A DNA stretch of 64,000 bases from Halanaerobium hydrogeniformans. GTDB taxonomy: Bacteria; Bacillota; Halanaerobiia; Halanaerobiales; Halanaerobiaceae. A model generated the notes under the pieces. The model was not told the origin of the DNA, made no database searches, and saw only the letters and a list, made by a program, of their open reading frames with translations. The position numbers were made by a program, and so were the translations under genes. Each line of letters begins with the position of its first letter. Position 1 is the first letter of the stretch. The stretch is from the NCBI RefSeq assembly GCF_000166415.1, contig NC_014654.1, positions 620,001-684,000 on the forward strand, read 5' to 3'. Below, piece by piece: positions 1,588 to 9,951 of this stretch.

Positions 1588-2448
1588 TTGAAGATTAAAG
1601 ATTGTGCTTTTGTACTTGAAGGTGGAGGTATGAGAGGTGCTTTTACGGCCGGAATTATAGATTATCTATTGCAAAATAATATATATTTTGAGCAGCTATA
1701 TGGTGTTTCAGCTGGAGCTAATAATGCTGCTAATTACTGCAGCAGGCAGAGGGTGAGAAATAAGAAGCTCTTTACTGAACTTGTGGAAGATAAAAGATAT
1801 ATGGGAATTAAAAATTTAATTAAAAATGGCAGCTATTTTGGGATGGATTTTCTCTTTCATAAACTTCCCCGGGAGGTACTTCCTTTTGATTATCAGGCTT
1901 TTAAAAATTCTTCCAGCAATCTAAAAGTAGCTGTTACTGCCTGTGAAAGTGGGGAAGTAGAATATTTTTCTCCTCAAAAATTTGAGAGTAATGAAAAAAT
2001 AGATAAACTATTTAAGGCTTCAAGCAGTTTGCCTTTGATGGCAAGTCCGGTAGAGATTGAAGGAAAAGCCTATCTAGATGGTGGAATAAAAGACTCAATT
2101 CCTGTTAAAAAGGCTTTGGCTGATGGTTATAAAAAGGTTTTTGTAATCTTAACCAGACCTAAAGATTACCGTAAATCACCTCTTAAAGCTAAATTCATAT
2201 TAGATCTTTTCTTAAAAAAGTATCCTAATTTAGTTGAAGGCTTAAAAACAAGACATCTTAATTATAATAAAACTTTAGAATTAATTGAGGAGAAAGAAGA
2301 TAAAGGTGAATTTTTTGTATTTAGACCTAAAGACTTAGAGATTGATCGCTTTACTAAAGATGTAGATCAGCTTAAAGATCTTTATAGTAGAGGCCATGAT
2401 TTAGCACTAGAAAAAGCAGAAGAATTAAAGAATTGGCTTAAAATTTAA
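1588..2448 (+). CDS. Patatin-like phospholipase (YjjU type)
   Basis: A cytoplasmic lipid acyl hydrolase of the patatin fold that uses a Ser-Asp dyad. Visible motifs are the oxyanion loop GGGMRGAF (residues about 12-19), the nucleophile elbow GVSAG (about 40-44, Ser at its centre) and the catalytic Asp in YLDGGIKD (about 166-173). At 286 residues it matches the compact bacterial YjjU-like family; no signal peptide or membrane segment is visible. The start is TTG at 1588, chosen because AGGCGGGGTG sits about 8 bp upstream and the protein begins just before the first patatin strand. It stands alone between the PAS-GGDEF pseudogene and the amylase. The physiological substrate is unknown. Confidence 0.88.
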   Translation: MKIKDCAFVLEGGGMRGAFTAGIIDYLLQNNIYFEQLYGVSAGANNAANYCSRQRVRNKKLFTELVEDKRYMGIKNLIKNGSYFGMDFLFHKLPREVLPFDYQAFKNSSSNLKVAVTACESGEVEYFSPQKFESNEKIDKLFKASSSLPLMASPVEIEGKAYLDGGIKDSIPVKKALADGYKKVFVILTRPKDYRKSPLKAKFILDLFLKKYPNLVEGLKTRHLNYNKTLELIEEKEDKGEFFVFRPKDLEIDRFTKDVDQLKDLYSRGHDLALEKAEELKNWLKI

Positions 2449-2590
2449 CTAAGCAATCTTTGTGTTATCTGTCTATTTGTGAAAATACAGGTAAAATTGT
2501 GTGTTTAATTCTAAAATATGTTATAATTAAGTAAGAATAGAAATTAATATTCACAAATAAATGATAGATCTAACAGGAGATAAAAAAAAT

Positions 2591-3688
2591 ATGGTAATAT
2601 TACAGGCTTTTCATTGGAATTGTTTGAATGACTGGTGGAAAGAAATTAGTGCAATTGCTGAAGAGATTTCTATAAAAGGTTTTGATGCAGTCTGGCTGCC
2701 ACCTCCTTCAAAAGGAATGGCGGGAGATAATTCTATGGGATATGATATTAAAGAACATTACAACTTGAATTCAAAATTTGGAGATAAGAAATCGCTGAAA
2801 GAACTGATAAATAAACTGCATAAAAATGATGTCGAAGTGATGGCTGATCTAGTTTTAGGCCATATGTTGGGTGAAAAAAAAGAATGGAATCCATATTTTA
2901 AGAAAAAAACATATACTAAATTTGAGGAAAGACACTTCCCGAAAAATTACGAGCATTTCTGTCACGAATGTGGTAACTGTCAGAGCAGAAACAGTTTTGG
3001 GGAAACGGTTTGCTATTATTCAGATAATGCATATATGAAAGATGGACTTATCGATTGGGCTAAATGGTTAAAATATGAAATAGGTTTTGATAGTTTTAGG
3101 CTTGATAATTTAAAAGATATGCGCTGGGATTTTTCAAAGGATTTTGCAGCTGAATTTATAGATCATACTTTTATGGTGGGTGAATACTGGTCTGGTGATG
3201 ATGAATATTTAAATGGTTTTATTAATCATACCAATTTAAATGTTTTTAATTTCCCTCTCTATTATAATATTAAAGAGATGTGTATGAACCCCTTATTTTC
3301 AATGCGAAATTTAGAAAAAACATCTAAAAAGAATAAAATTAACTTTTTATCCAATCATGATATTGAGAGAGATGAAAGAGATTTCAATAAAGATGCTATT
3401 ATTACAAATAAAGAGCTGGGTTATGCTTATATACTATTTCAGGATAATCCGGCAGTCATTTACTGGAATGACTATTTTAAATATGCTCTGAGAGAAAAAC
3501 TGGATGAATTGATCAATCTTAGAAAAAATTCAATTGATAAAAAACTGGAATTAATAACTTTAAATGATGATATTTATCATGCCCGTCGGGGAAGATACAA
3601 TATAATTATAAATAACGGTTATGATAGTTATAATTACTCAGGACTGGATGTTAAGGGTAGAGACTATGAGATCTTCATCCAGGATTAA
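2591..3688 (+). CDS. Compact cytoplasmic GH13 alpha-amylase family protein with a Cys cluster
   Basis: Glycoside hydrolase family 13 barrel of 365 residues, no signal peptide, so it acts on alpha-glucans inside the cell. Conserved regions appear in order: ADLVLGH (region I), FDSFRLDNL (region II, nucleophile Asp), VGEYWSGD (region III, acid/base Glu) and LSNHDIER (region IV, transition-state Asp). I chose ATG 2591 rather than the upstream in-frame ATG 2561 because AGGAGA lies 10 bp before 2591 and nothing precedes 2561. The usual C-terminal beta domain is very short. Unusually, four cysteines (C124-x2-C127-x2-C130-x10-C141) cluster in the region where amylases often carry a metal-binding insert; this may be a metal knuckle (inference). 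A TATAAT at 2522 could be its -10. Confidence 0.88.
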   Translation: MVILQAFHWNCLNDWWKEISAIAEEISIKGFDAVWLPPPSKGMAGDNSMGYDIKEHYNLNSKFGDKKSLKELINKLHKNDVEVMADLVLGHMLGEKKEWNPYFKKKTYTKFEERHFPKNYEHFCHECGNCQSRNSFGETVCYYSDNAYMKDGLIDWAKWLKYEIGFDSFRLDNLKDMRWDFSKDFAAEFIDHTFMVGEYWSGDDEYLNGFINHTNLNVFNFPLYYNIKEMCMNPLFSMRNLEKTSKKNKINFLSNHDIERDERDFNKDAIITNKELGYAYILFQDNPAVIYWNDYFKYALREKLDELINLRKNSIDKKLELITLNDDIYHARRGRYNIIINNGYDSYNYSGLDVKGRDYEIFIQD

Positions 3689-3724: not shown

Positions 3725-6700
3725 ATGAAAAAAATCTTTATAATATTTGCATGTTTTCTGTTTTTATTTCTTTTAGCTGATGGAAGCCATGCAAATAATG
3801 ATATTAGAGAATTTGAAAATCAGACCTGGGAATATATCCCTGGTGATCTTCCAAGTGGAAGAGATAATATATATAATTTTGATTTAGCAGAAGGCTGGCA
3901 GTCCTATCAGCCTGGAGATACAATTGAACAATCTACCGATTATAGTTATATCTGGCTTAGAGTAAAGCTGCCAGATTATGATATCGATAATCCTACGCTT
4001 TATTTGCCAGGAGTTCTAGCCATAGAATATCCTTTCCCCTATCAATTATATCTTAATGGTGATCAAATTTATGAAAATGGCAGTTTAGAAGGAAAACTCA
4101 GGCTGCCAGAAAATTATCATTCTCTGGTTTCTTTACCTCAAAACTGGCAGGATAAATATCTTTATTTCCGTTTTTACAATAATAATCGTCAATTTACTAT
4201 TGGAGAAGAGATTATTGCTTCGATTTCTTCATACCAGAATCTAATTGATGATTTATTTTCTCGAGCTCCAATCGGGCTTATTTTCGCTTTAATTTATCTT
4301 TTGCTTGGGATCTTTGCAGGAATTATTTATTTTTTTAGACTAAATGAAAAAATTTACTTATATTTAGCTCTTTTTTTATTGGCAACTTCTATTTATACAA
4401 TACTCTATAACCAAATTTTTTCGGTAGTATTTAATCAATGGAATTATAGTTTTTATTTAATTTATTATTTTAGTATTTTTGTTTTAGCCGGTAGTTTCAG
4501 TTTTTTAATTAGTCAGATTATAAGCTCAAAAGAATTTTTATATAAAGCAATTGGTTATTCATATTTGATTACACTGGTTTTAGCTGTATTTTCTTATCTA
4601 CTTCACCCACCATCTATGTTTACATTTTTAAAATTTTATAATATTTCGATTATTATTTTTTCTATATTTACTTTTGCCCAGATATTAAAGATCTTTCTGG
4701 TAGATAAAGAAGAGTTAAGTAAAGAGATTCTGATTTTATTAACTACAATTTCTTTTTTGGGAATAATTGCACTAATACTTGTTTTCGATATGTTAGCGGT
4801 TCAATATGATATTCAAATTTTTAGAGATCAATTTGATTTGCTTTCCTATAATCTTTTGTCATATGGAATATTCTTCGTTGTCCTCTCATTGCTCTTTATA
4901 GTCGGCAGGCGTTTTTCTGCTGTATATACCGACCTAGTTCAATATTCAGAAAAACTGGAAGAGGCTAACAAAAATTTAAGCAAATTAGACCACTTTAAAG
5001 ATAAATTTATTACTACTACTTTAAAAGAATTTAAACTACCCTTATATAATATTATTTCAGCTGCAGAGTCGGTAATTAGGAATAATGTTAAAGCCCTAAC
5101 AGTAGATTCTAAAAAAGATTTAGCCGGTATAATTAAAGGAGGTCAGGGTTTAAATTACCTTTTTGACAGTTTTATTGATTATGCAGATATTAAAAAGGGA
5201 ACTATTGAATCAGAAACTGAAGATTTAGAGCTTAATCAGATTATTGATTATATAATAGAGTTTTTTAAGCCCATGCTTTCTGAAAAAGATATTAAGGTAG
5301 AAAATAATATTGAGAAAGAAAAGTTTATTATTGTTGCTGATAAAGGTCAGCTGATTCAAGCGATTTACAATCTTTTAGAATATGTCACAGTTTCTATCGA
5401 TTCAGCGGAGATCTCATTTATGGCAGAAAAAGCTAATAATAAAATTAAAATAAAGCTAAAAATCGAAGCAAATAAAATTTTATTTAAATATAAGTCAGAC
5501 ATTCTTGATATTGAAGGTGATTCTTTATTTATTACTGATTTAAATGATTTAAGACAGTTTATTATTCAGCAGCTGATTAAAAAACAGGGAGGAGATTTTG
5601 AGGTCGAAAAGCTGGCCAATAGGTCACTGCTTTTTACTATTTCGCTTCCGGGTTTAAGTTATGATAATTATCAAGAAGTTCCTGAAATTGTTGATTCAAT
5701 TAGATCAGAAACAATTGAAAAAGAAAATAAATTAAAATATTCACCTAACAATAGTAAAGAAACTATTTTGATTATAGGAGAAAAATCAAGTGATATTGAA
5801 TTCTTAAAAAATATTTTAATAGTTGAAGATTATAATATTCAGTTTGTAGATAAAAAAGAAGATATTAAAGATATATTAAATGAGGAAGTTGCTTTGATTA
5901 TAATTAATTTATTTTCTTTAGATCAATCAACTCTGAAATTATGCAAAATAATTAGAGATGATTATATGCTGTTTGAGCTTCCTATATTAGTGGTTTTAGC
6001 CAGAAGTGAACCCGATTATTTAATTCAGGGCTTTGAAATAGGCATTAATGACTTTATTCAAAAGCCTTTTACCAGCAGTGAATTAAAGGCAAAAGTAAGA
6101 AACATGGTTATTTTAAAAGAAAAAGTAAAAGATAGTATCCAGCAAAAGCAGAATTTTCTTAGAGCCCAAATCAAGCCTCACTTTTTATATAATACCCTGG
6201 GTGCCATTGCTTATTTATGTGAAAATAATCCAGCAAAAGCCAGCAAATTAGTGTTAGAACTTTCAAGTTATCTCCGTTATAGCTTTGATTTTGACAGTTT
6301 AAATAAGCAGGTTTCCATCAAAAAAGAGTTAGAACTTATTGATTTTTATTTAAACATTCAAAAAGCTCGTTTTGGTGATAAGATAACAGTAAAATATAAT
6401 CTAGCTGCAGATTTAATATTTACGGTACCACCTTTAATAATTCAGCCTTTAGTTGAAAATGCAGTTAAACATGGACTTTTAAGCAGAGAAAATGGAGGTA
6501 ATTTAGAAATTTGCATAAGCGAGTTAAAAGATTATTTTGAAATTAAAGTCATTGATGATGGGCCGGGTATGAGTGAAGAAGAATTGAAGCATTATCTGTT
6601 AAAAAATGATAATAAGGAAAGAGAAAAAGTAGGGCTTAAAAATATCAATCATCGTTTAAAAAGGATTTATAATCAACAATTAGAAGTAGAAAACACTAAA

Positions 6701-6745
6701 AGAGCTGGCACAACTATAAAATTTAAAATACCGAAGCAGGGTTAG
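3725..6745 (+). CDS. 7TMR-DISM multi-module sensor kinase with LytS-type catalytic module
   Basis: A 1006-residue membrane sensor. Order: signal peptide (1-23), 7TMR-DISM extracellular domain (about 30-170), seven membrane helices (about 180-395), coiled coil, a HisKA-like region, an ATPase-like region, a receiver-like domain (about 680-795), then a LytS-type kinase (about 800-1006). Only the last module looks active: IKPHFLYNT carries phospho-acceptor His819, with N-box QPLVENAVKHG and G1 box DDGPGM. The first HisKA has Lys434 where the His should be (LKEFKLPL against HELRTPL). The receiver has Asn728 at the phospho-Asp position and lacks the acidic pair, but keeps the Lys-Pro (QKPF). It begins an operon with a diguanylate cyclase (4 bp gap) and a response regulator, its likely partner. 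Confidence 0.88.
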   Translation: MKKIFIIFACFLFLFLLADGSHANNDIREFENQTWEYIPGDLPSGRDNIYNFDLAEGWQSYQPGDTIEQSTDYSYIWLRVKLPDYDIDNPTLYLPGVLAIEYPFPYQLYLNGDQIYENGSLEGKLRLPENYHSLVSLPQNWQDKYLYFRFYNNNRQFTIGEEIIASISSYQNLIDDLFSRAPIGLIFALIYLLLGIFAGIIYFFRLNEKIYLYLALFLLATSIYTILYNQIFSVVFNQWNYSFYLIYYFSIFVLAGSFSFLISQIISSKEFLYKAIGYSYLITLVLAVFSYLLHPPSMFTFLKFYNISIIIFSIFTFAQILKIFLVDKEELSKEILILLTTISFLGIIALILVFDMLAVQYDIQIFRDQFDLLSYNLLSYGIFFVVLSLLFIVGRRFSAVYTDLVQYSEKLEEANKNLSKLDHFKDKFITTTLKEFKLPLYNIISAAESVIRNNVKALTVDSKKDLAGIIKGGQGLNYLFDSFIDYADIKKGTIESETEDLELNQIIDYIIEFFKPMLSEKDIKVENNIEKEKFIIVADKGQLIQAIYNLLEYVTVSIDSAEISFMAEKANNKIKIKLKIEANKILFKYKSDILDIEGDSLFITDLNDLRQFIIQQLIKKQGGDFEVEKLANRSLLFTISLPGLSYDNYQEVPEIVDSIRSETIEKENKLKYSPNNSKETILIIGEKSSDIEFLKNILIVEDYNIQFVDKKEDIKDILNEEVALIIINLFSLDQSTLKLCKIIRDDYMLFELPILVVLARSEPDYLIQGFEIGINDFIQKPFTSSELKAKVRNMVILKEKVKDSIQQKQNFLRAQIKPHFLYNTLGAIAYLCENNPAKASKLVLELSSYLRYSFDFDSLNKQVSIKKELELIDFYLNIQKARFGDKITVKYNLAADLIFTVPPLIIQPLVENAVKHGLLSRENGGNLEICISELKDYFEIKVIDDGPGMSEEELKHYLLKNDNKEREKVGLKNINHRLKRIYNQQLEVENTKRAGTTIKFKIPKQG

Positions 6746-6749
6746 AGGG

Positions 6750-8273
6750 GTGAGGCAAAGATTGAATAATTTTTTTATAAAGTATAAATTTCTTTTTATT
6801 ATTTTATTAACTTTAGTGATAATGTTCATTTCTTATAATAATTATCAGAGAAGCAATGTCTTAATAGAAAATAATTATGAGAAACGTCAGAAACTGGTGG
6901 AAAGAAATATAGTAGATTCTATTATTCATGTTGATCAAAGTTTAAAAATTGCTGATAATCAATTAAACATGGAGATGCGTAAATATTCTCAGGTTTTATT
7001 AGATAAATATAAAGATAATCCTAATGTGAAAGAATGGAATTTAGAAGAATTAAAAAAGGAGTTTGTTGATTATGAAATCTTTATTGTTAATAGTGATTTA
7101 AAAGTCACAGCAACAACTTATGCTCCTGATTTAGGATTGGATTTTAATCGCTTTCCCAGCTTCGCTGAATCATTAAGGCAGCGATTAAAAGGTGATTCAT
7201 TAGTTATTGATAGACTTGATTTATCGATAAACACGGGTGAATTTAAAAAATATAGTTATCAGCCAACCCCTGATAATCAGTATTTATTAGAATTAAGTGT
7301 TGATATCCTGAAAAGATTTCCTGCGTTAAAGGATTTGAAATTATTTAGAGATGTAGATAATTTAATTGCAGAATATGAAATTGTAGAAGACATCGGACTT
7401 TATAGAGTTGATGCTCTCCAGGGAAATGTTAGTAGGTTAAGTAATGAAGAACCCTTTTTATATTCTGAGATACCTGAATATGAGGCTGAATTAGCCAGCA
7501 ATGCTGCTCAAAGCAATCAGATGCAGTCAAGAAATATTCAAGCAAATGGAAGTAATTATATCCATAATTTTTTTCCAGCTATAGTTGAAGACTCTCTGGA
7601 AAGCAGCCAGGGCTGGGCTTCATATATTGTAGGTATTCAGTATAACGAGTCTGTAATGCAGGCTGACATTAATTTTAATAGAAACTTATTTTTAATTAAC
7701 AGTATGATTATGTTTGTAATTCTTTTAATTTTCATCGGTATTGTAATATATTTATTACAAAATTTAGAGAATCAGGCTTATCATGATCAGCTTACCGGTT
7801 TGGCTAATCGTGATTTAGTTGTTAAATCATTTTCTGATTTAAAAGAAAAAGCTAAAAACAGGCAGAAAAAAATTGGAATATTATTTTTAGATATAGATAA
7901 TTTCAAAGAAATTAATGATAATTACGGGCATGATGTTGGTGATAAAGTTTTAAAAGAAGTAGCTGATTTGTTAAGTAGCAGTTTGCGAAGTAATGATAAA
8001 TTGTTTCGGCTTGGTGGTGACGAATTTGTGATTACGGTTACTGCTATTAATTCCATGGAGGAGATAAAACAGGTGGCTAAAAGAATTGTCGATGCTTTCA
8101 AAGAACCACTGATAGTTGATCAAAGCAACTTTTTTATAAGTGTTAGTTTAGGTATCAGTATTTATCCTGAACATGGGCAGGATCTCAGTGAACTTTTAAA
8201 AAATGCTGATAATGCAATGTACAGGGCAAAACAGCAAAAAGAAGATTATATTTTATATGAAGATTTCGAATAA
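6750..8273 (+). CDS. Membrane-anchored diguanylate cyclase with periplasmic sensor region
   Basis: Synthesises c-di-GMP. Two membrane helices (about residues 10-28 and 308-332) bracket a roughly 280-residue extracytoplasmic region that is probably a Cache-like ligand sensor (fold inferred from layout). The C-terminal GGDEF domain starts at DQLTGLANRD, carries DIDNFKEIND, an intact GGDEF active site and an inhibitory site RSND exactly five residues before it, so it should be active and product-inhibited. The GTG start lies 4 bp after the kinase stop, with GAGGGG overlapping the end of that gene, implying translational coupling. Its position between kinase and response regulator suggests a shared stimulus. 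Confidence 0.88.
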   Translation: MRQRLNNFFIKYKFLFIILLTLVIMFISYNNYQRSNVLIENNYEKRQKLVERNIVDSIIHVDQSLKIADNQLNMEMRKYSQVLLDKYKDNPNVKEWNLEELKKEFVDYEIFIVNSDLKVTATTYAPDLGLDFNRFPSFAESLRQRLKGDSLVIDRLDLSINTGEFKKYSYQPTPDNQYLLELSVDILKRFPALKDLKLFRDVDNLIAEYEIVEDIGLYRVDALQGNVSRLSNEEPFLYSEIPEYEAELASNAAQSNQMQSRNIQANGSNYIHNFFPAIVEDSLESSQGWASYIVGIQYNESVMQADINFNRNLFLINSMIMFVILLIFIGIVIYLLQNLENQAYHDQLTGLANRDLVVKSFSDLKEKAKNRQKKIGILFLDIDNFKEINDNYGHDVGDKVLKEVADLLSSSLRSNDKLFRLGGDEFVITVTAINSMEEIKQVAKRIVDAFKEPLIVDQSNFFISVSLGISIYPEHGQDLSELLKNADNAMYRAKQQKEDYILYEDFE

Positions 8274-8314
8274 AGATAGAAACTTTTTAAATAGCTTAGA
8301 TGAGGAGGTCGGAT

Positions 8315-9409
8315 ATGTTAAATGCAATAATAGTAGATGATGAAATACATGCTTTAGAAAGAATGAAAGATTTTGTAATTAAATCTGACAGCTTAAATCT
8401 ACTTGGCAGTTACAGTCAGGCAGAAAAGTGTCTTAAAGAATTAGAGCAGGGTAAGTTGCCTGATGTAGTATTTTTAGATATTCAAATGCCTGGAGTTAAT
8501 GGTTTAGAACTGGCCCAAAAGATCCAAGATATTGATGAAAATCTTGATGTGGTATTTATTACCGCTTATGATAATTATGCAGTTGACGCTTTTGAGTTAA
8601 ATGCTCTAGATTATTTATTAAAACCGATTTCTAAACAGCGATTTAAAAAAACAGTTCAGAGATTAAAAGAAAAGCAAGGTTTAGTAGAAGAAAAATCTGA
8701 AAAAATAAAGGTCAATTCTTTTGGTCAATTAGACTTAAGCTATCAGGAAGAAAAACTAAATATTAAATGGCCGACCTTAAAATCTCAAGAATTATTTTTA
8801 TTATTGCTTGATCATAAAGGTAATCTTGTAGCAATTAATAAATTAGCAGGAAAGTTGTGGCCGGACAAAACACAGCAGAAAGCCAATAATATTTTATATA
8901 CTACCATTTATAGTTTAAGAAAGGCTTTTAGAGAGATAGGTTTCAAAAAAATTATTACCAGTAAAAGGGGTTATTACAGACTTAATTTAGATAACTTCGA
9001 TTTAGCTTTATTAGAATTTGAAACTCTAATTACTAAAATAAAATCTAATTCTGCTTTTTCTTCTGAAGAAATTGAGCAGTTGATAAAAGTTTATCAGGGC
9101 CCTTATCTTGAAGATGTAGATTATGAATGGGCCTATAATTATAAAGCCAAACTTGAAAAAGAATATAAAGATGCTCTTTTAAAAGCAGCAGATAACTATT
9201 ATAAACAGCAAAAATTTCAAAAGTCAGAGCAGCTTCTAAAAACTATTTTAGAGCTTGATTTTTTATTTGATCCAGCTCAGAAAAAGCTTATAAAACTTTT
9301 AAAATTTCAGGCTAAAGAAGAATTAGCAAGAATGCAATATAATCAGTATAGGATGACCTTAAGCAGGGATTTAGGTATTGAGCTTAAAATCAGTTATGAT
9401 GACATTTAA
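8315..9409 (+). CDS. Response regulator: receiver + winged helix + BTAD (SARP-like)
   Basis: A DNA-binding response regulator of 364 residues. The receiver has the acidic pair in IIVDDE (Asp8, Asp9), phospho-acceptor Asp55 in FLDIQMPG and the conserved Lys in LLKPIS. A winged-helix (OmpR/Trans_reg_C type) follows at about 130-225, ending in SKRGYYRL, then a helical bacterial transcriptional activator domain (BTAD) to the C-terminus. I chose ATG 8315 over ATG 8300 because the ribosome binding site GAGGAGG at 8302-8308 overlaps the latter and sits 6 bp before the former. It is the last gene of the kinase operon and is followed by a terminator. Targets are unknown; the downstream surface-protein genes are plausible candidates. 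Confidence 0.88.
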   Translation: MLNAIIVDDEIHALERMKDFVIKSDSLNLLGSYSQAEKCLKELEQGKLPDVVFLDIQMPGVNGLELAQKIQDIDENLDVVFITAYDNYAVDAFELNALDYLLKPISKQRFKKTVQRLKEKQGLVEEKSEKIKVNSFGQLDLSYQEEKLNIKWPTLKSQELFLLLLDHKGNLVAINKLAGKLWPDKTQQKANNILYTTIYSLRKAFREIGFKKIITSKRGYYRLNLDNFDLALLEFETLITKIKSNSAFSSEEIEQLIKVYQGPYLEDVDYEWAYNYKAKLEKEYKDALLKAADNYYKQQKFQKSEQLLKTILELDFLFDPAQKKLIKLLKFQAKEELARMQYNQYRMTLSRDLGIELKISYDDI

Positions 9410-9448
9410 TCAAGTGAATTTTAAAAATAAAATATTTTAATCAAGATG

Positions 9449-9488
9449 ATTCCAGGTTGTTTTTAGCAGACAATCTGGGATTTTTTTA
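9449..9488 (+). terminator. Rho-independent terminator of the sensor-kinase operon
   Basis: attccaggttg and caatctgggat form an 11-bp stem (with G-U pairs) around a loop of about 10 bases, followed by seven T residues. It lies 40 bp after the response regulator stop. Confidence 0.8.
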
Positions 9489-9588: not shown

Positions 9589-9951
9589 ATGTTCAACACA
9601 GTGATAATTAATGATAATGCCAACTATTTTAAAGAAATAACAAGCTTGATTTCTCAAAATAAAGAATTAAATTTGATAGCAAATTATGAAAATCCTATCA
9701 GATGTTTAACTGAATTAAAAAAAGATAAAAGAGAACTTAAAGTAGTAATTATGACCACTAATATTATGGGATATAGTGGTTTAGAGGTAGCAAAACAAAT
9801 TCATCACTTGGACAAGAAGATTAAAATTATCTTTATTGCTGATAATCATGATTATGCAGTTGAAGCTTTTGACGTAGGCGCATTTGACTATCTTTTATGG
9901 CCGGTTGAGGAAAAGAGATTTAGAGAAACCATTAATCGCCTGGAAGAATAG
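9589..9951 (+). CDS. Stand-alone degenerate receiver (pseudo-receiver)
   Basis: A single receiver-fold domain of 120 residues with no output domain. It aligns along its whole length with the receiver of the preceding response regulator (for example DYAVEAFDVGAFDYLL against NYAVDAFELNALDYLL), so it is a paralogue. Every catalytic position has changed: the acidic pair is Asn-Asp (IINDN), the phospho-Asp position is Thr56 (IMTTNIMG) and the conserved Lys is Trp (LLWPVE). It cannot be phosphorylated in the normal way and probably acts by binding a partner (inference). GAAGGGAGAA precedes the ATG. The next gene, an outer-membrane barrel, begins 58 bp downstream in the same direction. Confidence 0.85.
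   Translation: MFNTVIINDNANYFKEITSLISQNKELNLIANYENPIRCLTELKKDKRELKVVIMTTNIMGYSGLEVAKQIHHLDKKIKIIFIADNHDYAVEAFDVGAFDYLLWPVEEKRFRETINRLEE

Follow-up and report, generated by a model that had tools for sequence, protein, structure and literature searches.

The 64,000-nucleotide stretch of the Halanaerobium hydrogeniformans genome analysed here (NC_014654.1, positions 620,001 to 684,000 of the forward strand; hereafter the window) encodes, at window positions 3725-6745 on the forward strand, a sensor kinase of 1006 residues in which a histidine kinase module and a receiver have apparently lost their phosphotransfer chemistry, while a LytS-type kinase at the end of the same chain keeps its residues. 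As far as aligned sequences can establish them, these catalytic losses, their sharing by a whole clade of relatives, and the intact residues of the LytS module and of an adjacent response regulator are firm. Since the breakage runs through the clade, it looks like the long-past remodelling of a widespread type of signalling protein, and no recent accident.

Catalytic residues of the kinase and its relatives

The gene is an uninterrupted, ATG-initiated open reading frame, and its product has a transmitter-receiver-transmitter order of modules as judged by Pfam, NCBIfam and profile comparison. Pfam cut-offs are passed only by Response_reg (residues 681-792), His_kinase (810-887) and HATPase_c (905-1005), and neither HisKA nor the first HATPase gives a Pfam match. 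We nevertheless place a HisKA/HATPase module before the receiver, because NCBIfam kinase models extend over this part with scores well short of their cut-offs (HrmK over residues 404-789, E-value 4.6e-19; EpsF best over 417-578), and because this part, taken from three members of the clade, matched that of eight active relatives in a profile comparison with a probability of 99.9. The HisKA-like region (residues 405-500; 4937-5224, on the forward strand like all features described here; alignment and profile comparison) has Lys434 (codon AAA, 5024-5026) in place of the phospho-acceptor histidine. In the degenerate first HATPase (residues 501-668; 5225-5728; alignment) the N-box asparagine is replaced by Tyr553, the G1 aspartate by Ile580 and the G1 glycine by Lys584. 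The original prediction, made from the sequence alone, had described an inactive HisKA with lysine at the phospho-histidine position and a degenerate ATPase part, and the alignment bears out all of these replacements. By its residues, the first module is a HisKA-like sequence without the phospho-histidine, that is, a pseudo-histidine kinase.

The receiver (residues 678-797; 5756-6115; Pfam and alignment) scores 37.2 bits with Response_reg against a cut-off of 30.2. Its acidic pair reads Gly685-Glu686, Asn728 (codon AAT, 5906-5908) replaces the phospho-acceptor aspartate, Leu758 stands in place of threonine or serine, and Lys780 is retained, so that the aspartate and acidic-pair losses reported earlier are now joined by that of the Thr/Ser position. 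To go by its sequence, it fits the definition of a pseudo-receiver given in PMC12632262: a domain recognised as a receiver in which the key phosphotransfer residues are gone. The LytS-type phospho-acceptor region (residues 805-890; 6137-6394; Pfam and alignment) carries His819 (codon CAC, 6179-6181), and the second HATPase (residues 895-1003; 6407-6733; Pfam and motifs) has VEN ending at residue 912, DDGPG at 944-948 and GLKN at 970-973; this end of the protein is, as had been claimed, the only module with its histidine and N and G boxes in place. Two clade-specific changes in LytS, R813 and Q879, were considered as markers of inactivation and rejected, because among the 111 active rows of the alignment described below 10 have R813 and 5 have Q879 as well.

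Full-length relatives were found in five of the 59 genomes of the window's class, its own included (G000, the window; G049, G051, G007 and G020), and these span four families. G049 is the closest, with 51% identity to the window protein over the kinase part, followed by G051 with 44%. The G051 locus has a frame break in the region of L085:8659, near query residues 955-965 in the second ATPase, which could be a sequencing error or mark a pseudogene. Beyond the class, 27 of 398 genomes of a phylum sample matched at an E-value of 1e-50 or better (one of them in the sensor part only) and 66 of 299 genomes of a second class at 1e-60, with the two best candidates scored per genome in both searches; in a third class 3 of 15 genomes matched. 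Matches range from an E-value of 3.4e-191 down to the cut-offs, and most cover approximately residues 190-1005 or 400-1005. Most of these relatives are 25-33% identical to the window protein. Hybrid kinases with this layout are common in the phylum, and many of the relatives have about 1030 residues. Our alignment comprises 130 rows, the window protein and 129 full-length open frames from the fetched loci, and leaves out 24 partial rows (five pieces of the same family, two sensor-only and 17 matching the LytS part only); because its rows were picked for their similarity to a protein with a dead module, the rates of residue loss in it are not a census. A separate class of proteins with receiver and LytS only was sought among the partial rows and rejected: L161, L128 and L158 continue upstream in another frame, and L139 is a degraded locus. 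Among viral contigs, searches with the whole-family alignment found five LytS relatives and searches with a module-1/receiver alignment found none; a scan of genome contigs gave one weak match, over the receiver.

The LytS histidine is present in 130/130 rows, the HisKA histidine in 111/130 and the receiver aspartate in 127/130. Every one of the 111 rows with a HisKA histidine also keeps the N-box asparagine, the G1 aspartate, the acidic pair (as Asp or Glu), the aspartate, the Thr/Ser and the lysine, and all of them lie among the 125 rows outside the clade. The remaining 14 non-clade rows lack the histidine, and retain the receiver aspartate in 14 cases, Thr/Ser in 13, the lysine in 11, the acidic pair in 8, the N-box asparagine in 8 and the G1 aspartate in 9. 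These rows (L039, L068, L126, L130; L040, L074, L075, L080; L163, L118; L078; L124; L159; L160) have Q, R, Y, N, A or D in place of the histidine and are useful intermediates. In the clade the HisKA histidine is missing from all five rows, replaced by lysine in the window protein and by glutamine in the other four; the G1 aspartate, an intact acidic pair and Thr/Ser are likewise missing from all five, and the N-box asparagine from four. The receiver aspartate is replaced by asparagine in three clade rows and kept in two, G051 and G020, and the lysine is kept in four.

Neither Lys434 nor Asn728, whose conservation the original prediction had proposed to check by alignment, is conserved as a letter across the clade; on the aligned rows, the character common to the clade is the absence of the phospho-acceptor histidine. 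Close homologues with both His and Asp restored, which the same prediction had named as the sign of a local loss, did not appear: none of the other four clade rows has the histidine, and the two with the aspartate lack an intact acidic pair and Thr/Ser. We found nothing in favour of a loss confined to this genome, or of a sequencing error in it, and reject both as hardly credible, since these four rows, from other genomes, are also without the histidine and carry different replacements in the ATPase motifs.

A tree of the receiver and LytS columns, with the five catalytic receiver columns omitted and 85 rows left after removal of those more than 80% identical, was built with a quick method. 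It places the five class members on one side of a branch with a Shimodaira-Hasegawa-like approximate likelihood ratio test (SH-aLRT) support of 99; their tree neighbours are six rows with all residues kept, joined with a support of only 80. On this tree the HisKA histidine changes at least eight times, and the receiver aspartate at least three times, always inside the clade. No sampled row without the receiver aspartate retains the HisKA histidine, whereas 14 non-clade rows are without the histidine and have the aspartate. From this we infer, on a tree that cannot tell gain from loss, that inactivation of the first kinase probably preceded the replacement of the receiver aspartate.

Conservation of the inactive modules

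The original prediction had argued that the inactive modules are not decaying at random and had suggested a role for them in signal relay or protein contact. We compared the ten pairs of clade members with active relatives, setting each of them against pairs of active proteins of like LytS identity and omitting catalytic columns. Identity in the clade is lower over the first half of the receiver (residues 678-740; 31.2% vs 53.0%), the HisKA-like region (38.2% vs 61.1% over residues 405-450 and 31.7% vs 42.1% over 455-500) and the first ATPase (27.2% vs 46.1%), and nearly normal over the second half of the receiver (residues 741-797; 56.9% vs 59.4%). With G020 omitted, the member whose first module has eroded furthest, the clade and active values are 35.8% and 54.8% for receiver residues 678-740, 59.7% and 60.4% for 741-797, 48.7% and 62.7% for HisKA residues 405-450, 38.8% and 45.3% for 455-500, and 33.7% and 47.2% for the first ATPase. 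An earlier matching by range of LytS identity had given 57% vs 57% for the second half of the receiver; we prefer the pairwise matching, which gives 57% vs 59%.

The cut at residue 740 was chosen by us, and a scan of 20-residue blocks over all columns is independent of it. The largest deficits of the clade fall on the His box (-36 points), the N box (-38) and G2 (-39), and other blocks of the first module have smaller deficits or none (-1 at residues 445-464, -4 at 485-504). Receiver residues 685-744 are 21-27 points below the active relatives, and the block of residues 785-804, which holds the last receiver helix and the linker to the LytS module, is 8 points above them. The expectation of non-random decay is half borne out: it agrees with the second half of the receiver, and not with the first module and the first half of the receiver, which are less conserved. 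Judged by these identities, the first module is eroding and the part of the receiver that adjoins the LytS module is much less affected, as would suit a part that makes contacts or relays a signal.

Neighbouring genes and the sensor part

A gene for a protein with a hydrophobic N-terminal stretch and a GGDEF domain (6750-8273; RLGGDEF present) begins four bases after the kinase. Its homologue adjoins the kinase in 4/5 clade loci, with only the first part on the contig in G020, and G007 has no GGDEF in the available stretch, where only about 0.4 kb of contig follows the regulator. We searched the flanks of 127 loci outside the window, over 1.5 kb or over at least some 3 kb, with shorter flanks in many cases at contig ends: the N-terminal part of the GGDEF protein occurs in three of them, all of the clade (0/123 non-clade loci), and some GGDEF domain in nine, seven of them non-clade. 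An exclusive pairing of the two genes is ruled out, as the GGDEF protein family is found in 21/59 genomes of the class, and as neither such a kinase nor such a regulator was seen in the available flanks of five inspected GGDEF loci (of ten fetched; L171 is cut on one side by its contig end). In the loci compared, the GGDEF gene seems to have joined this cluster as a non-exclusive partner.

It is followed by the likely partner of the kinase, a response regulator (8300-9409) with a receiver whose aspartate site is intact, a Trans_reg_C domain and a BTAD-like part (Pfam, the latter just below cut-off). The regulator adjoins the kinase or sits one gene away in all five clade loci, and its receiver keeps the acidic pair, Asp, Thr and Lys in all five. 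Outside the window, 91/127 loci have a frame like its C-terminal part. A terminator-like hairpin with a T run lies after the regulator gene (9448-9482), one of five such sites in the region where 1.7 are expected from shuffles. Further downstream, a single-domain pseudo-receiver (9589-9951) has Thr for Asp and Trp for Lys in the alignment of receiver residues. Its counterpart in G049 (L084:5416-5931) occupies the equivalent position and has the complete residue set, which argues that 9589-9951 lost its chemistry separately from the kinase receiver; no counterpart was seen in the remaining three loci of the clade, of which one is cut off shortly after the regulator gene. Two genes lie directly upstream of the kinase (1588-3688, forward strand), the second ending 36 bases before the kinase start; we take them to be patatin-like and alpha-amylase-like, in that order.

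The N-terminal part of the kinase starts with a signal-peptide-like segment (hydropathy peak at residue 4) and a putative extracellular sensor part (residues 1-180; 3725-4264; hydropathy and homologue matches), followed by seven hydrophobic segments (residues 183-400; 4271-4924) starting at residues 183, 210, 245, 275, 307, 335 and 376. The arrangement is 7TMR-DISM-like, and 10/13 members of alignment A1 match Pfam 7TMR-DISM_7TM; the window protein does not. Its sensor part resembles those of two further genomes of the class that carry the sensor part only (L029/L088, matched over residues 21-311, and L030/L089, over 21-400), one copy of which (L030/L089) is GGDEF-fused: at L089:6265-8058 (G047) the same kind of extracellular and 7TM sensor, with 32% identity over residues 21-400, has a GGDEF domain in place of the kinase. 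The other, at L088:5172-7233 (G057), is a sensor-only frame of 344 residues that adjoins an opposite-strand frame of 313 residues, which we presume to be transposase-like, and an insertion may have truncated the sensor.

Possible mechanisms and known systems

The explanation that we put forward, tentatively and with slightly less than even confidence, is that the kinase derives from a HisKA-receiver-LytS hybrid and that its LytS module is gated mechanically through a receiver that works without phosphorylation, the kinase signalling to the adjacent regulator. The sensor and 7TM part would change the dimer geometry, the helices of the dead HisKA would serve as a stalk, and the dead receiver would form a coupling block that needs no phosphorylation, its last helix leading into that of LytS. 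This coupling would set the autophosphorylation of His819, from which the phosphoryl group would pass to the regulator at 8300-9409, and the regulator would control transcription. That the sensor acts via the dead modules, that the last receiver helix transmits the signal, and that the regulator is the partner is what we infer. In favour of this account are the LytS histidine, present in every row, where the HisKA histidine is absent from 19/130 and the receiver aspartate from 3/130, these three all in the clade; the support for the clade on the tree; the conservation of receiver residues 741-797 and of the block at 785-804; and the intact receiver of the regulator in all five clade loci.

Several observations weigh against this mechanism. 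Across the five clade rows the number of hydrophobic segments before the HisKA region varies from two to eight by hydropathy, and with sensor parts so unlike one another a single common mechanical input is not obvious; G049, the closest relative, has only two. Prediction of residues 405-1006 with AlphaFold2 from the single sequence gave a mean predicted local distance difference test (pLDDT) score of only 33.5, and the receiver helices are named after what we assume to be the general receiver topology. With catalytic columns included, the blocks at residues 745-784 of the second half of the receiver are 7 and 12 points below the active relatives; the LytS blocks range from -17 to +12, with a mean near zero by construction, as the pairs were matched on LytS. 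The ten clade pairs derive from five sequences and are not independent, and the pair formed by the window protein and G020 has 47% identity over the second half of the receiver, against 61% in its matched pairs.

The main rival, in our judgement unlikely, is slow neutral erosion, under which the dead modules act as no more than spacers between membrane and LytS kinase and are gradually being lost. The lower conservation of the first module and of the first half of the receiver is what it would predict, and so is the state of G020, where the first module is barely recognisable and matches active relatives with a profile probability of only 16.9 (from one sequence). A relic locus in G694 likewise consists of a truncated sensor frame, with no match to the first module, and a separate frame with the receiver and LytS. 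Yet the frame is open across both modules in 5/5 clade rows, from four families, and the stop codons counted within three of the matches lie elsewhere: before the HisKA region in G049, near the end of the second ATPase in G051, at the frame break, and at the natural end in G020. The proposed gating is told apart from erosion only by the second half of the receiver, which, together with the linker, is almost as well conserved as in active relatives. Since this contrast is slightly weaker on pairwise matching, a little weight moves from the gating mechanism to erosion.

An improbable explanation, though one with a precedent, is that the pseudo-receiver senses a ligand, as does the pseudo-receiver of ShkA from Caulobacter, which binds cyclic di-GMP (c-di-GMP) (PMC7010744, PMC12632262), and that the neighbouring diguanylate cyclase supplies it. 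The adjoining GGDEF gene in four clade loci, its N-terminal part being seen beside no non-clade locus, speaks for it, and G049, with its two hydrophobic segments, may have a non-extracellular input. However, a GGDEF domain of some kind also lies beside seven other loci, the family occurs in 21/59 genomes of the class and, in the five loci inspected, with no such kinase or regulator in the flanks, G007 shows none in its stretch, and no c-di-GMP site is recognisable. A broader version, in which an ancient His-Asp-His phosphorelay kinase became a single-chain allosteric device with the receiver as a ligand or second-messenger sensor that gates LytS (c-di-GMP from the adjacent cyclase being the obvious candidate) and the pseudo-receiver at 9589-9951 competing with the partner regulator, strikes us as somewhat more doubtful again. 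Very unlikely is a role in trans, the receiver serving another kinase or the dead HisKA sensing or sequestering another regulator in the manner of DivL, a recorded pseudo-kinase repurposed as an input sensor (PMC4211667). Although G051 and G020 keep the receiver aspartate, no clade row has an intact acidic pair or Thr/Ser, and the aspartate itself is gone from the window protein.

Pseudo-kinases, pseudo-receivers and kinase-receiver-kinase proteins are already on record. Among the papers listed by our literature searches (on the architecture, on pseudo-kinases and on Halanaerobium kinases) we found no description of a dead HisKA and a dead receiver placed before an intact LytS module across a clade, with active versions of the architecture still frequent around it. 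In bacteria at large, the HisKA histidine is lost in 0.9% (722/76,471) and the receiver aspartate in 2.0% (3,111/152,269) of cases, and the abstract of the same paper calls the mechanisms of pseudo-receivers still a mystery (PMC12632262). In the family sampled here the HisKA histidine is missing from 19/130 rows and the LytS histidine from 0/130; with the sample drawn as described, this rate is not a census. Within a single architecture the family offers a natural series of graded states, from fully active proteins through those with a dead HisKA and the receiver aspartate kept to those with both modules dead. It allows a direct test of the role of a receiver placed ahead of a kinase, and the conservation pattern singles out the last receiver helix, together with the linker, for such changes.

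Among characterised proteins, TodS and TmoS have two kinase modules flanking a receiver, with output to a separate regulator (PMC4321377), and the window protein shares with TodS the transmitter-receiver-transmitter order and, probably, output to a separate regulator. TodS, however, runs a His1-Asp1-His2-Asp2 phosphorelay and has PAS domains and no membrane regions (PMC4321377), whereas the window protein lacks His1 (K434) and Asp1 (N728) and its second kinase is of the LytS type. ShkA of Caulobacter, too, has a pseudo-receiver within the kinase chain (PMC7010744), but ShkA undergoes autophosphorylation and the phosphate then goes to its second receiver, while for the window protein the link to c-di-GMP is the GGDEF neighbour only. 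Plain LytS kinases are not known to have a HisKA module or a receiver. BtsS/LytS kinases combine a LytS-type kinase with a 7TM sensor (PMC10653868), a combination that the window protein appears to share. They pair with LytTR regulators, unlike the regulator at 8300-9409, which has Trans_reg_C and a BTAD-like part and gives no LytTR match. The window protein also has in common with other signalling proteins that a kinase-like module without a working histidine is kept. DivL and RcsD are of this kind and serve other proteins, whereas the window protein has a LytS kinase in the same chain. The window protein is also akin to the HisKA-receiver-LytS hybrids, for which we found no family name in the literature searched; they share the order 7TM, HisKA, HATPase, receiver, LytS and HATPase and are homologous to the window protein throughout the first kinase, the receiver and LytS, and they differ in that 111/125 of the non-clade rows are active, by their residues, in both HisKA and receiver, while the window clade is active in neither.

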